Shown: positions 39,044-44,921 of the stretch, one piece after another
Layout of the letters: each line of letters opens with the position of its first letter
Position numbering within the stretch: the stretch's first letter is position 1
Assembly (NCBI GenBank): GCA_016795155.1
Contig: JAEUIE010000029.1
Location: 193,212 to 246,172 of the forward strand
Source: Planctomycetia bacterium
GTDB taxonomy: Bacteria > Planctomycetota > Planctomycetia > Gemmatales > HRBIN36
Direction of reading: 5' to 3'
DNA length: 52,961 nt
The notes under the pieces: model-generated
What the model was told of the DNA's origin: nothing
Seen by the model: only the letters and a program-made list of their open reading frames with translations
Database searches by the model: none
Program-made: the position numbers and the translations under genes

Positions 39044-40357
39044 ATGGCATCACCGCGTCCACTCAGAGCTCTGCCCGTCATCCAGAACTGGGATTGTCAT
39101 CAGTGTGGGAACTGCTGCACCGATTATGTCGTCCCTGTTTCAGATGCCGAGAAGAAACGGATCGAAGGACAGGGTTGGGAACAGTTTCCAGAGTATGCCG
39201 GCAAGCCACTCTTCGTCCGCCATTCGCCGTGGTGGAAATTCTGGAAGAAGAAATATCGGCTGCGGACCATCGACGATCATTGCCTGTTTCTCGATGAGAA
39301 AGGTCTGTGCCGGATTCATGGCAAATTTGGCCTGGACGCCAAGCCCTTTGCCTGTCGGCTCTATCCCTTCATTTTGGTGCCTACCGGAGACAGTTGGCGG
39401 GTCAGCATGCGTTATGCGTGCCCGTCAGCAACCGATAATTTGGGCCGGAGTCTGACCCAGCAGAAGCAGGATATTTTCAAATACACCCAGGAAATGGAAC
39501 ACTGGGATGAGCCGGAGATCGAGGCAGCCACCACGGCGACCGGCCGGGCTGTGGAAGAATCACGTCGCAAAAGACTGCCGGTTCTGCAAGGGCGAACCAC
39601 TGTTTCCTGGGATGATCTGGATCATTTTCTGAAAGCGATGCTCGGCATCATCCGCGATGCCAGCGATACGTTCCCCCGCCGTATGTTGCGGTTGCTGGAA
39701 CTGGTGCGACTGTGTCAACAGGCCAAGTTCGACAAGCTCACCGGCAAGCGGCTCAAGGAATTTCTGGAATTGGTGGGCGCGGGCGTGAGTGCCGAGGTGC
39801 CTCGCGATTTGTCGAAACTCCCAGCTCCGAATTGGGTAGGCCGCACGCTGTTCCGCACCTCGCTCGCGGTCTTCCTTCGCAAGGATTCAGGGCTGCGGCG
39901 TGGCGTGGCTGCACGAAGCAGGTTTGCACTCGTTGCCGCTATGATGCGGATGGTATCTGGCAAAGGGCCGTTGCCGCAGTTGCAGAAGGGGCTGCCTGAA
40001 ATACAGTTGCAGGATTTCGAACAGCCGTTGGGCGAACTCGAAAAAGAATCTCTGGAAAAGCTGGAACGTTATTACTCGGTGAAAATCGAATCGTGCCAGT
40101 TCTTCGGCCCAACGTGTTATGACATGTCGCTGTGGGAAGGGTTGCCGTTTCTGGCATTGACGTTGCCCTGCATCATGTGGTTGGCACGGGGCTACCGAAT
40201 CCTGGGCCAACCTGCCGCCATCAGCAAAGCCATCACGGTTATTGATGAGAACTATGGCTACAACCCGCTCCTGGGACATTTCCGCCAGCGGTTTTCCAAC
40301 CGCATTCTGTTCGGCCAGAAGGAACTGGATCGCCTGATTGCGTGGTATGGAAAATAA
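39044..40357 (+). CDS. YkgJ-type cysteine-cluster protein
   Basis: A 437-residue protein with an N-terminal YkgJ/CxxCxxCC zinc or iron-sulfur cluster domain: Cys18, Cys21, Cys24 and Cys25, followed by CLFLDEKGLCRIHGKFGLDAKPFACRLYPF with further Cys ligands and CPS. The C-terminal half (from about residue 170) is helical, with SCQFFGPTCYDMSLWEGL near residue 345. Roles of YkgJ proteins are unknown. It starts ten bases after ispF. Its TAA stop runs directly into a heptamer repeat array. Confidence 0.85.
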   Translation: MASPRPLRALPVIQNWDCHQCGNCCTDYVVPVSDAEKKRIEGQGWEQFPEYAGKPLFVRHSPWWKFWKKKYRLRTIDDHCLFLDEKGLCRIHGKFGLDAKPFACRLYPFILVPTGDSWRVSMRYACPSATDNLGRSLTQQKQDIFKYTQEMEHWDEPEIEAATTATGRAVEESRRKRLPVLQGRTTVSWDDLDHFLKAMLGIIRDASDTFPRRMLRLLELVRLCQQAKFDKLTGKRLKEFLELVGAGVSAEVPRDLSKLPAPNWVGRTLFRTSLAVFLRKDSGLRRGVAARSRFALVAAMMRMVSGKGPLPQLQKGLPEIQLQDFEQPLGELEKESLEKLERYYSVKIESCQFFGPTCYDMSLWEGLPFLALTLPCIMWLARGYRILGQPAAISKAITVIDENYGYNPLLGHFRQRFSNRILFGQKELDRLIAWYGK

Positions 40358-40430
40358 GCTATTAGCTGTCAGCTATCAGCTATCAGCTTTCAACTGACCC
40401 CTCACCCCTGTCCCTCAACCCTCACCCCTC
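40357..40430 (+). repeat. AGCTNTC heptamer array plus CTCACCCC repeats
   Basis: Five heptamer-like units (40357-40395) begin inside the TAA of the YkgJ gene and are followed by C-rich repeats of the ACCCCTC/CTCACCC type (40398-40430) that end two bases before the nnrE ATG. There is no Shine-Dalgarno sequence left between repeat and start. Confidence 0.85.
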
Positions 40431-40432
40431 AA

Positions 40433-41732: not shown

Positions 41733-42158
41733 ATGTGCTTTCTGGTTTTGCTTCAACTGGTATGTCTGGTTCCGGTGGAACCACCCGTGCAGGAGGCAGA
41801 ACTGGTAGGCAAATGGAGCATTGTCCGGTTTTCGCGAGGCAGCACCGATTATCCTGAGACAACTCTCTCACAGATGTGTGCCTACTTCACCCGCAAGCAT
41901 CTGCTCATTCGTGCCATCGATACCATTGGCGAAAGTGCCTACACCCTCAAGAAAACCAATGGCATCACCGAACTGGACCTGACGGCTCACGATGGCTCCA
42001 AAAAAGGGACCACCACCAAAGGACTGATCACTCTGAACAAGGAAAAGAATAAGATAATCATCTATCTGGGTCTGGAAGGTATGGAACGGCCAACGGCTAT
42101 TCCCGACAAAGCTGAAGAAGGGCACGAATTGATTGTGATGAAGTTGATTGAGCGGTAA
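41733..42158 (+). CDS. TIGR03067-like exported protein
   Basis: A 141-residue exported protein starting at ATG 41733, which follows GGAG by six bases; longer starts upstream have no ribosome site. The signal is MCFLVLLQLVCLVPVEP. The mature part, ELVGKWSIVRFSRGSTDYPE and LDLTAHDGSKKGTTTKGLITL, has the lipocalin-like beta pattern of the planctomycete-specific TIGR03067 domain (usual start LqGtW). The function of that domain is unknown. Single gene between repeat clusters. Confidence 0.7.
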   Translation: MCFLVLLQLVCLVPVEPPVQEAELVGKWSIVRFSRGSTDYPETTLSQMCAYFTRKHLLIRAIDTIGESAYTLKKTNGITELDLTAHDGSKKGTTTKGLITLNKEKNKIIIYLGLEGMERPTAIPDKAEEGHELIVMKLIER

Positions 42159-42227
42159 TGCACGAAATACATGCTCAATCGTCAACATAATGCAGTTGTC
42201 CCATAAAATAACGAAGTCACTCATTAC

Positions 42228-42256
42228 TGATAGCTGAAAGCAGATAGCTGACAGCT
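42228..42256 (-). repeat. AGCTNTC heptamer array before mnmG
   Basis: Inverted orientation: minus-strand units AGCTGTC, AGCTATC, TGCTTTC, AGCTATC. It ends seven bases before the mnmG ATG and occupies the place where a ribosome binding site should be. Confidence 0.8.
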
Positions 42257-42263
42257 CAATCCC

Positions 42264-44135
42264 ATGCTCACCTACGAATACGACATCATTGTGGTTGGTG
42301 CAGGCCATGCTGGTTGTGAAGCGGCACTCGCGGCGGCACGCATGGGGTGCAAGACGGCGCTGCTCACCATGAACTGCGACATGGTAGGCGCCATGAGTTG
42401 CAACCCTGCCATCGGCGGCGTGGGCAAAGGCCAACTGGTGCGCGAGATCGATGCCCTCGGCGGCGAGATGGGAAAAATTACTGACCGGGCTGGCATTCAA
42501 TTTCGCGTCCTCAATCGTTCCAAAGGCCCAGCCATGCATGGCCCGCGGGCACAGTGCGACAAGAAACTCTACCAGTTCACCATGAAGGAAGTGATTGAGA
42601 ATCAACCTAACTTGACGCTAAGGCAGGAAATCGTTGAACGTATTTTAACAGAAGCTGTCAGCTTTCAGCCGTCAGCTATCAGCCCAGATGCCTCAGGACT
42701 CAGCACTCAGCACTCAGGACTTGGTATCACAGGCATTCTCTGCAAAGGCGATACTCTCTACCGGGCGAAAGCGGTGATTCTCACCACTGGCACTTTTCTG
42801 CAAGCCATCATGCATACGGGTGAAGCGAAAGTGGTGGGTGGCCGGGCTGGTGATGGGGCGGCTTTGGGGCTTAGCGAAAGTCTGCTGTCTGGCGGTTTTG
42901 AACTGGCCCGCTTCAAGACCGGTACGCCTTGCCGACTGAATGGCCGGACCATTGATTTTTCCGGGTTGGATGTGCAGCCTGGCGACGATCATCCTGTACC
43001 ATTCAGTTTCAGCACGGATAAGATCAGTCAGCCGCAACTGGCTTGCCACATCACCTATACGAATCAGAAAGTGCATGATCTTATCCGGGCTAACCTGCAC
43101 CGGGCACCAATGTACAGCGGGCAGATCAACAGCCGAGGGCCTCGGTATTGTCCTTCCATCGAAGACAAGGTCGTTCGCTTTGCCGATAAAGACAGGCATC
43201 AGCTTTACCTGGAGCCTGAAGGCTACCATACCCGCGAATATTATGTGAATGGCATCAGCACCAGTCTGCCAAAAGATGTACAGCAGGAGATGCTCCGCCA
43301 CATCCCCGGCCTGGAACACGCTGAGATCATGCGGTTTGGCTACGCGGTCGAATACGATTATGCTCCGCCTCACCAGTTGCAGGCGACGCTCGAAACGAAG
43401 AAGGTATCGGGCCTGTATTTCGCTGGGCAGATCAATGGCACCACAGGTTACGAAGAAGCAGCCGGACAAGGCTTGCTCGCCGGCATGAACGCTGCACTGA
43501 AACTGCAAAGGAAACCTGCTTTGGTGCTCGATCGCAATCAGGCTTATCTTGGCGTGTTGATTGACGACCTGGTGACACGGAGCGTGGATGAACCTTACCG
43601 CATGTTTACGTCGCGGGCTGAATACCGCCTAGCATTGCGACACGACAATGCTGACCGGCGGCTGACCCGGCTAGGCCGTGAAGCGGGACTTGTTTCCGAT
43701 CAGGATTGGAAACGCTTCTGCCGCAAGGAAGATACGATTGCCGACATTCTGAAGGATGTGCAACTCTATCGGCATGAAGGCATCAGCCTGGCACAATGGA
43801 TCAAGCGGCCTGGCACCACGTGGGAAATGCTGTGCGAATGGAAGCCCGACCTGCGACGCTGGAACGAATATCCCGCTGCGGTGGAACAGGTAATGGTGGA
43901 AGGCTTTTACGCAGGCTACATCCACAAGCAGGAAGAGACGGTGGAGAGACAGAACCGCCTGGAAACCAAACGCATTCCCGAAGCATTCGATTTCAGCCGA
44001 CTGACACATCTGCGTGCGGAAGCAAGGGAGAAATGGCTGCGGATCAGGCCGCGAACCGTGGGGCAGGCGAGCCGAGTTACCGGTATCACGCCTGCTGATG
44101 TTGCCTTGCTGGTGATGGGCTTGGAAGGGAAATAG
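42264..44135 (+). CDS. mnmG: tRNA uridine-5-carboxymethylaminomethyl modification enzyme MnmG
   Basis: A 623-residue MnmG (GidA), the FAD-dependent partner of MnmE in wobble uridine modification. FAD motif [17 protein letters not shown] (residues 11-27), [22 protein letters not shown], the second dinucleotide part [23 protein letters not shown]-like [15 protein letters not shown] and the C-terminal [10 protein letters not shown] are all present. About 21 extra residues lie between residues 131 and 153, encoded by a heptamer/CTCAGCA repeat array (42653-42720) inserted in frame. E. coli-type enzymes have only a short loop here. The rest of the frame is intact, so the gene should be functional. 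Confidence 0.95.
42653..42720 (+). repeat. Heptamer repeats inserted in frame inside mnmG
   Basis: AGCTGTC, AGCTTTC, AGCCGTC, AGCTATC units are followed by ACTCAGC/ACTCAGG units. These are the same repeats that sit outside genes at 17328, 36481, 40357 and 42228. Here they are translated as part of MnmG, about 22 residues rich in Ser, and no stop is created. Confidence 0.85.
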
Positions 44136-44214
44136 CGGGGCACTTTCAAACAGTAACACTTCTCGAAAGCAATCCGCATCGCCAGACTTTCTCTTGCGGA
44201 GCAATTGGAATTAG

Positions 44215-44234
44215 CCAGGCTCGGAAGAGCCTGG
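44215..44234. terminator. Perfect hairpin after mnmG
   Basis: CCAGGCTC-GGAA-GAGCCTGG: eight base pairs with a GGAA tetraloop, TTAG just upstream, followed by a T-rich stretch. It lies between convergent mnmG and the PEP-CTERM gene, so it may terminate both; the TTAG head also makes it REP-like. Confidence 0.6.
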
Positions 44235-44246
44235 TGAGATTTGTTA

Positions 44247-44921
44247 TTATTCAATCAATGAATCCTGTATAGCAAGTTTTCTGTGGTAATGCCGCCAGGC
44301 GCAAACTGCCGCTCCCAGTCCGCTGATGCCCAAGAGCATCCACGTGGTGGGTTCAGGGACTGAGGCGGCAAAGTTCGCCATTGCATCTTCATACCAGATG
44401 AAACCGGAAAAGAACTCGGTGTCGTTTCCTTCGATCACCATTCTGCTGACCGGCGTGTTGCCGAACGACCAGCCATTCCAGGTCCAGGTCTGGGCGCTCT
44501 TGGGGATATTCATCGCCAGAGAGCCGAGCAATTGATTGTTCACATCGTAAAACGTGGCCACGCCATGATCAAACCGGCTGTTGTTTTCCCAATAGGCGCC
44601 GAAATGCGACACAGGCTGGGTAAACGTCCACTGAGAAATACCGATCTGCCCGCCAAACGTCGGGAAGGAACGAGGCAACACGGTGTCGCCACCCCGCGTG
44701 GAAGAAAATTCATACTTGAGAGCACCACTGGGATGAATGTTCTGCACCAAACCTTGACCACCAAAGATCTGATACTGCTGGTACGAAGGCAGAAAATTGG
44801 AAACATTGAAATTTTCAAATACCGAACCGGTGAACGGGCCGATCGGCGTAATCTGTCCCCAGGCAGCGCTGCTGCTGCAGCAGAGCATCAGTAGTGTCAA
44901 TTGACTACAACGTGCATGCAT
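44247..44921 (-). CDS. PEP-CTERM sorted exported protein
   Basis: A 224-residue exported protein starting at ATG 44921, preceded by AGGAGG eight bases away. The signal peptide ends near AWGQ. The mature part (ENFNVSNFLPSYQQYQ; FGAYWENNSRFDHGVATFYDV) is beta-rich and resembles Lectin-like or cohesin-type PEP-CTERM proteins. The C-terminus VPEPTTWMLLGISGLGAAVCAWRHYHRK (from residue 188) is a full PEP-CTERM triad. Role unknown; envelope or EPS-associated location inferred. Confidence 0.85.
   Translation of the reverse strand: MHARCSQLTLLMLCCSSSAAWGQITPIGPFTGSVFENFNVSNFLPSYQQYQIFGGQGLVQNIHPSGALKYEFSSTRGGDTVLPRSFPTFGGQIGISQWTFTQPVSHFGAYWENNSRFDHGVATFYDVNNQLLGSLAMNIPKSAQTWTWNGWSFGNTPVSRMVIEGNDTEFFSGFIWYEDAMANFAASVPEPTTWMLLGISGLGAAVCAWRHYHRKLAIQDSLIE

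Follow-up and report, generated by a model that had tools for sequence, protein, structure and literature searches.

Two tandem arrays of 7-base units lie in frame within the mnmG gene of the 52,961-nucleotide stretch of planctomycete DNA analysed here (the window), where they are absent from the relatives examined, are built of units dispersed through the same genome, and occupy a fast-changing loop of the protein. The same loop in other Planctomycetia holds different heptamer arrays or strong hairpins. The reading that we favor, with a probability of about three in four, is a near-neutral, recurrent capture of dispersed heptamer arrays that is filtered by reading frame and stop codons. Two arrays from two dispersed families occupy the two edges of the MnmG hairpin tip loop and are translated; under this reading, copies would arrive by a dispersal process that reaches many sites, most arrivals within genes would be lost, and the survivors would combine a tolerant loop, a frame-keeping length and stop-free units, with captured residues that are near-neutral and that decay or are replaced. 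One loop of a housekeeping enzyme that is repeatedly filled within one class amounts to a set of replicate natural experiments on the passage of non-coding DNA into protein and on the filters that would act on it, namely frame, stop codons, and loop tolerance.

Two heptamer arrays translated within mnmG

The mnmG gene (42264..44135, + strand) is an open frame of 623 amino acids, insert included, and its product shows full-length membership of the MnmG family TIGR00136 (819.7 bits against a cut-off of 524.85, residues 6-620) as well as a PF01134 match of 548.8 bits. Residues ~130-153 are the translation of period-7 arrays at 42653-42721, an insert of ~70 bp built from 7-base units, so that the in-frame, stop-free insert that an earlier note on this DNA placed at 42653-42720 is borne out. 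The note took the insert for a heptamer plus ACTCAGC repeats, and arrays are indeed found there, but rather than one repeat they represent two different heptamer families. The left array belongs to family A (TCAGCNN units, 42653..42683, + strand, ~4.4 copies; located by TRF and by own-genome pattern matches at C29:235869-235894), and the right array to family B (ACTCAGC/ACTCAGG units, 42692..42721, + strand, ~4.3 copies; TRF and own-genome pattern matches), with an 8-base spacer (42684..42691, + strand) read between the two TRF ranges.

The window loop has a lag-7 score of 17, a value reached by 0 of 300 dinucleotide shuffles, and no score above 3 at lags 4-6 or 8-12. By TRF and by these shuffles the tandem 7-base units are above chance, as for dispersed heptamer tandem repeats, and the units are imperfect copies with 79-91% matches (TRF). 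Two conserved anchors are 79 residues apart in the window MnmG, against 58 where the loop is minimal and 61 in G002, the closest relative; the "about 21 extra residues" of the earlier note thus holds against a minimal loop and becomes 18 against the closest relative. The fold of the window insert was no better than that of its shuffles (z +0.6), and a hairpin in this copy was rejected. A known RNA element was considered and rejected, as the single Rfam match in 41900-44300 is sub-threshold and outside the insert. Just 3' of mnmG, at 44204-44234 on the minus strand, there is a weak match to the Acido-Lenti-1 sRNA (23.7 bits, gathering score 37, E 0.014).

Heptamer families A and B across the genome

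The units of the insert recur at many sites, as expected of dispersed heptamer repeats. The family A pattern TCAGCNNTCAGCNNTCAGC has 46 matches in the 5.28 Mb genome and 0 in its reversed control, which merge into 24 arrays, and the family B pattern CTCAGNACTCAGNACTCAG has 12 matches, again with 0 in the reversed control. Four of the 24 family A arrays lie in frame in ORFs counted as coding (mnmG, Maf, a PVC-type protein, and the unnamed ORF of L006). Of the other 20, as judged on mechanical ORFs, 17 are <=30 nt from an ORF end with TCAGC reading outward (two of them resting on possibly spurious ORFs of 112 and 153 aa), one is at 41 nt, and two are near none, while 0/20 show the opposite polarity within 30 nt of an ORF end. 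Family A is thus a repeat found mostly outside genes, near ORF ends, and with a fixed polarity; its arrays at L017 and L218 also fall inside stop-to-stop frames (301 and 149 codons) not counted as genes. Nine family B arrays were examined, of which three are in frame (mnmG, KdtA, and L360) and six outside genes, the latter all with coding sequence to their right. The intervening distance is <=11 nt in L349, L353 and L003 and 38 nt in L351, and the array-to-start distance is ~12 nt in L357 and ~50 nt in L355, where the script reported no start and the starts were read by eye.

These units are dispersed and mostly intergenic in their own genome, in keeping with the description in the earlier note of repeats that sit between genes elsewhere and are translated in mnmG; the "mobile-type" nature given to them there is at most suggested by their dispersal. 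A further family A array, in the opposite orientation (42227..42256, - strand; TRF and sequence), ends 7 nt upstream of the mnmG ATG. The gene had been called "doubly invaded" on this account, and the array is present as described, but it occupies an ordinary site for family A and is nothing special.

The order in mnmG is coding sequence, family A array, spacer, family B array, coding sequence, with each array keeping its intergenic side. A 75-bp intergenic gap at 40358-40432 is similar in plan, with the stop codon of the preceding ORF, a family A array directly after it (40357..40392, + strand; TRF and sequence), 4 nt, and a C-rich array (40397..40432, + strand; TRF period 7 with 75% matches, also scored at period 13, and sequence) that is immediately followed by the ATG of another ORF.

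Dispersal of units bears on an unlikely alternative, an origin of the insert in place by slippage, without spread from other sites. Among long simple repeats, heptamers are reported as the most frequent class in most genomes, with slippage as a proposed source (PMC4679880). Against this, the same units, variants included, make up 24 family A and at least seven family B arrays in the same genome, and slippage would not by itself be expected to yield one consensus at many sites. Growth in unit number after the arrival of an array is possible. Elsewhere in the genome (L028/L030, C28 ~53164-53245) there is a nearly perfect TAGCTGA run of family A, far longer than the other arrays, which is the best place to seek variation in unit number between strains.

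Age of the insert and recurrence in the same loop

MnmG was sought in six other genomes of the family, and five have a near full-length protein, 68-73% identical to that of the window, with no match found in the sixth (G003). Their loops are 8 residues (G002), 15 residues (G001), and 31-32 residues long (G004, G005, and G006), the last three of a sequence unrelated to the window loop and without heptamers. Outside planctomycetes, 70 of the 72 loci with no planctomycete in their title were readable, and in 70/70 the anchor distance is 58-60 residues, with a top lag-7 score of 9; the minimal loop in every one read is in line with the few residues that the earlier note gave for E. coli-type enzymes. 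Aligning MnmG from relatives was the check that the note had proposed, and the residues of the insert are conserved in none of those examined, being absent from the five family members and the 70 readable loci. A conserved structural loop is ruled out by these comparisons, given that the family loops are shorter or unrelated and that the non-planctomycete loops are minimal. The searched genomes included no other member of the same genus, so the age of the insert is bounded only by the split from other genera.

In the order, the loop profile was matched in 91 of 102 genomes and yielded 87 readable loops, leaving out G020 and G035, cut by a contig end (in G020 inside the loop), and G024 and G027, where the frame is not open across the loop. 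With a heptamer array defined by a lag-7 score >= 10 and p <= 0.01, and a hairpin by z <= -3, heptamer arrays are found in 10/87 loops, corresponding to 10/27 loops of >=16 residues and 0/60 shorter ones (8 of these 60 being too short to score). The remaining 17 long loops fail the heptamer rule, which speaks against the favored reading; six have a hairpin only and 11 have neither. In the class, 377 of 397 genomes were matched, and the 20 longest loops outside the order were taken among the matches listed, a sample that was picked by loop length and carries no frequency information. One member duplicates another locus (L235 and L051), and of the other 19, 14 have heptamer arrays and five have neither feature. 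Among eight named planctomycete loci, L048 and L051 meet the heptamer rule.

Period-7 runs are concentrated in this loop. In 115 MnmG rows, the 6,453 bp of loop are overlapped by 44 runs, and the other 165,348 bp of open frame contain one; this lone run (L231) is ~140 codons before the loop and probably at or before the start codon. At seven other lags there are 0-1 runs inside the loop and 0-3 outside. The case had been presented as rare, a description that fails, as heptamer arrays are present in 26 of 114 MnmG rows (19 of the 114 picked for length) and in-frame arrays also occur in other genes of the same genome. Rarity is rejected, and a recurrent hotspot is more interesting than a single oddity.

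GC-rich palindromic elements are also seen in the same MnmG loop, at ~1180-1330 on the minus strand of L213 (G024), ~1010-1210 of L215 (G027), and ~1755-1845 of L212 (G020). In G024 and G027 the mnmG halves lie in different frames around the loop, through a true break or an assembly error, and the G020 contig ends within its element.

One potential consequence of a 7-base unit is that its gain or loss would shift the mnmG frame, creating a reversible switch and phase-variable tRNA modification. A unit length not divisible by three would have this effect on slippage, and the displaced halves of mnmG in G024 and G027 could be read in this way. A switch is nevertheless very unlikely. Imperfect copies such as those of the window disfavor slippage, 26/26 heptamer rows are open through the loop (though only open loops were counted), and the G024 and G027 loops are palindromes rather than heptamers, in fragmented assemblies of which one contains Ns. 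That the inserts themselves are assembly errors is highly improbable. Many of the genomes are fragmented, and one contig ends inside such a loop (G020), but in-frame arrays are also found in contigs of 4.9 to 9.8 Mb in other genomes (L191 in G029, L201 in G033, L221 in G204, L219 in G210, and L231 in G177).

Turnover and predicted structure of the loop

The heptamer units differ among species, and include AGCGAAG, GGCGGAA, CAGTGGG, ATTGCAG, GGGTATG, AGTGCGG, GAGAGTC, and others. On a quick MnmG tree built with the loop left out and scored for array presence or absence only, the 26 of 114 rows with arrays (19 rows having been selected for long loops) need at least 17 state changes. Genus g11 has heptamer arrays in 4 of 15 tabulated genomes, and G021, among the 11 without, has a strong hairpin. 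The loop sequence changes fast by these comparisons, even within a genus and between flanks that are 90-97% identical. For instance, one same-genus pair (L188/L146) has flanks 94% and 94% identical and a loop 18% identical, and another (L170/L173) has flanks 97% and 90% identical and a loop 38% identical. An insert can outlive a species split, since the same-genus species L192 and L195 have one array in common, with a loop 86% identical and flanks 98-99% identical.

AlphaFold2 modelling of the window MnmG from a 47-row alignment gave a mean pLDDT of 87.3 and a pTM of 0.90, with residues 135-149 at pLDDT <50 and joining strand 124-131 to strand 153-160. This places the insert at the low-confidence tip of a predicted beta-hairpin in an otherwise well-modelled MnmG. 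Among solved structures, the nearest are MnmG/GidA from Aquifex, Chlorobium, and E. coli, with the MnmE-MnmG complex 9hip among them.

Repeated use of this loop and the persistence of one array in two species of a genus (L192/L195) are what a co-opted insert would show, with a function in contacts to MnmE or tRNA, for example, or through the mRNA. We consider co-option improbable, given that different species have unrelated loops and the loop turns over inside genera, that the model has the insert as a low-confidence disordered tip, and that in-frame arrays are found in other genes of the same genome too.

Array order and a probable stop-codon filter

Near-neutral capture with filtering, the reading favored here, bears on which units are found in the loop and how they are oriented. 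Counted over MnmG rows as they stand, with kinship ignored, 17 of 18 loops with two scored arrays have a G-rich array first and a C-rich array last, the exception (L219) having two G-rich arrays, and where a single array was scored it is G-rich on the left or C-rich on the right, as expected, in seven of eight loops, the array of L224 filling its loop. The right array of the window is C-rich and on the right. Because its left array, which is under the score threshold, is C-rich too, the window copy follows the sides of its own families rather than the G-rich-first order of other two-array loops, which, like the lack of a hairpin in it, speaks against the favored reading. In Xanthomonas and Nostoc, intergenic heptamers are described as G-rich after and C-rich before coding sequence (PMC4692102), a polarity that the G-rich-first, C-rich-last MnmG loops share.

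Because 7 is not divisible by 3, an array of three or more units is read in all three frames, and only stop-free units or orientations can persist in an ORF. The units are stop-free at any phase in 41 of 44 MnmG-loop runs, a count uncorrected for base composition and relatedness; for the other three the consensus array predicts one in-frame stop, and the real sequence is without it. All in-frame arrays of the window's own genome (7/7; four of family A and three of family B) are read in their stop-free direction.

That arrays keep their intergenic order in the loop provides a handle on how heptamer arrays spread. A tentative and rather doubtful extension is that an active process in Planctomycetia lays polarised arrays at the borders of constrained sequence, gene ends and the edges of tolerant loops alike. 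The loop would then be a miniature intergenic spacer, and non-coding repeats would continually become new protein. If true, this border deposition would make the MnmG hairpin loop a natural recorder of the array-laying process.

Relation to known dispersed repeats

The best-described case of dispersed repeats captured in frame is that of Rickettsia, where palindromic elements (RPE) of ~150 bp encode a conserved peptide and lie in frame inside unrelated conserved genes (PMC10969869). The present case is similar in that dispersed repeats are in frame in unrelated genes of one genome, namely mnmG, Maf (PF02545, L216), KdtA (PF04413, L005), a PVC-type CxxCH protein (TIGR02604, L015), and two unnamed ORFs (L006 and L360). 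Unlike RPE, as described there, which form one conserved family, the insert here is ~70 bp and made of 7-base units that vary among species, and one loop of one enzyme is filled repeatedly.

Intergenic heptamers have been reported as GGGAATC in Xanthomonas, GGGGA(C/T)T in Nostoc, and TAACTGA in Beggiatoaceae (PMC4692102, PMC4679880), and the cyanobacterial STRR are likewise described as dispersed tandem 7-base units. The planctomycete arrays resemble the former as dispersed tandem units near ORF ends, with a fixed polarity and with some within ORFs (PMC4692102, PMC4679880), and differ in their repeated, class-wide capture in the same loop of one enzyme, which is absent from the excerpts of those descriptions. 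Elements of the REPIN/MITE type are short, dispersed, often inverted, and sometimes in ORFs (PMC10969869; REPIN PMC3116915). A shared body between terminal inverted repeats would be expected of such elements; the spacers of six arm pairs in the window's own genome look unrelated by eye.

The closest precedent for in-frame capture is RPE (PMC10969869), and that for heptamers is TAACTGA within ORFs (PMC4679880); with these precedents, the kind of event is already known. For the repeated filling of one enzyme loop by unrelated heptamers, no precedent was found in the titles and opening abstract lines listed for planctomycete heptamers, for MnmG/gidA with palindromic or repetitive elements, and for heptanucleotide repeats with intragenic loop insertion, nor in the excerpts of the papers cited here, and this recurrent filling is the new part.

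In-frame arrays in other genes

Comparatively less is established for other genes with in-frame arrays, and what was surveyed in Maf and KdtA carries less weight than the MnmG survey. Maf was considered as a second hotspot and rejected, with period-7 runs in just 2 of 30 loci read (30 of 87 matching genomes), one from the window's own genome (L269) and one (L293) unplaced relative to the Maf domain. Motif-based reading of the Maf loop succeeded in 2/30 loci, and G002 (L270) has a short Maf loop. In KdtA, the loci of 30 of 95 matching genomes were read, and runs were found in three, two of them in one loop (L299, the own genome, and L313) and one elsewhere (L316). Another 20 KdtA loci, mostly chosen for a split match, had no period-7 run of real bases, one match being a run of N. 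Palindrome-type translations such as TPPTPLPEGKGE fill, as judged by eye, a loop near query residue 199 in L329-L341 (genus g11 and others), and by eye several of the 20 further loci have them at two sites. The KdtA loop near residue 199 is possibly a second hotspot of captured repeats.

The unnamed ORF of L006 has no match in Pfam or NCBIfam. In G177 and G243, which belong to another family, GAGAGTY arrays lie within long ORFs that include PVC-type, FabA-like, and UvrA-like proteins. The pattern used, GAGAGTYGAGAGTYGAGAG, matched 45 times against 36 in the reversed control in G177, and 8 times against 3 in G243, and because this pattern is nearly its own mirror image the reversed control is uninformative for it. 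In one instance (L250, G177), the two domains of a Cas4-Cas1 fusion are separated by an in-frame GAGAGTY array.
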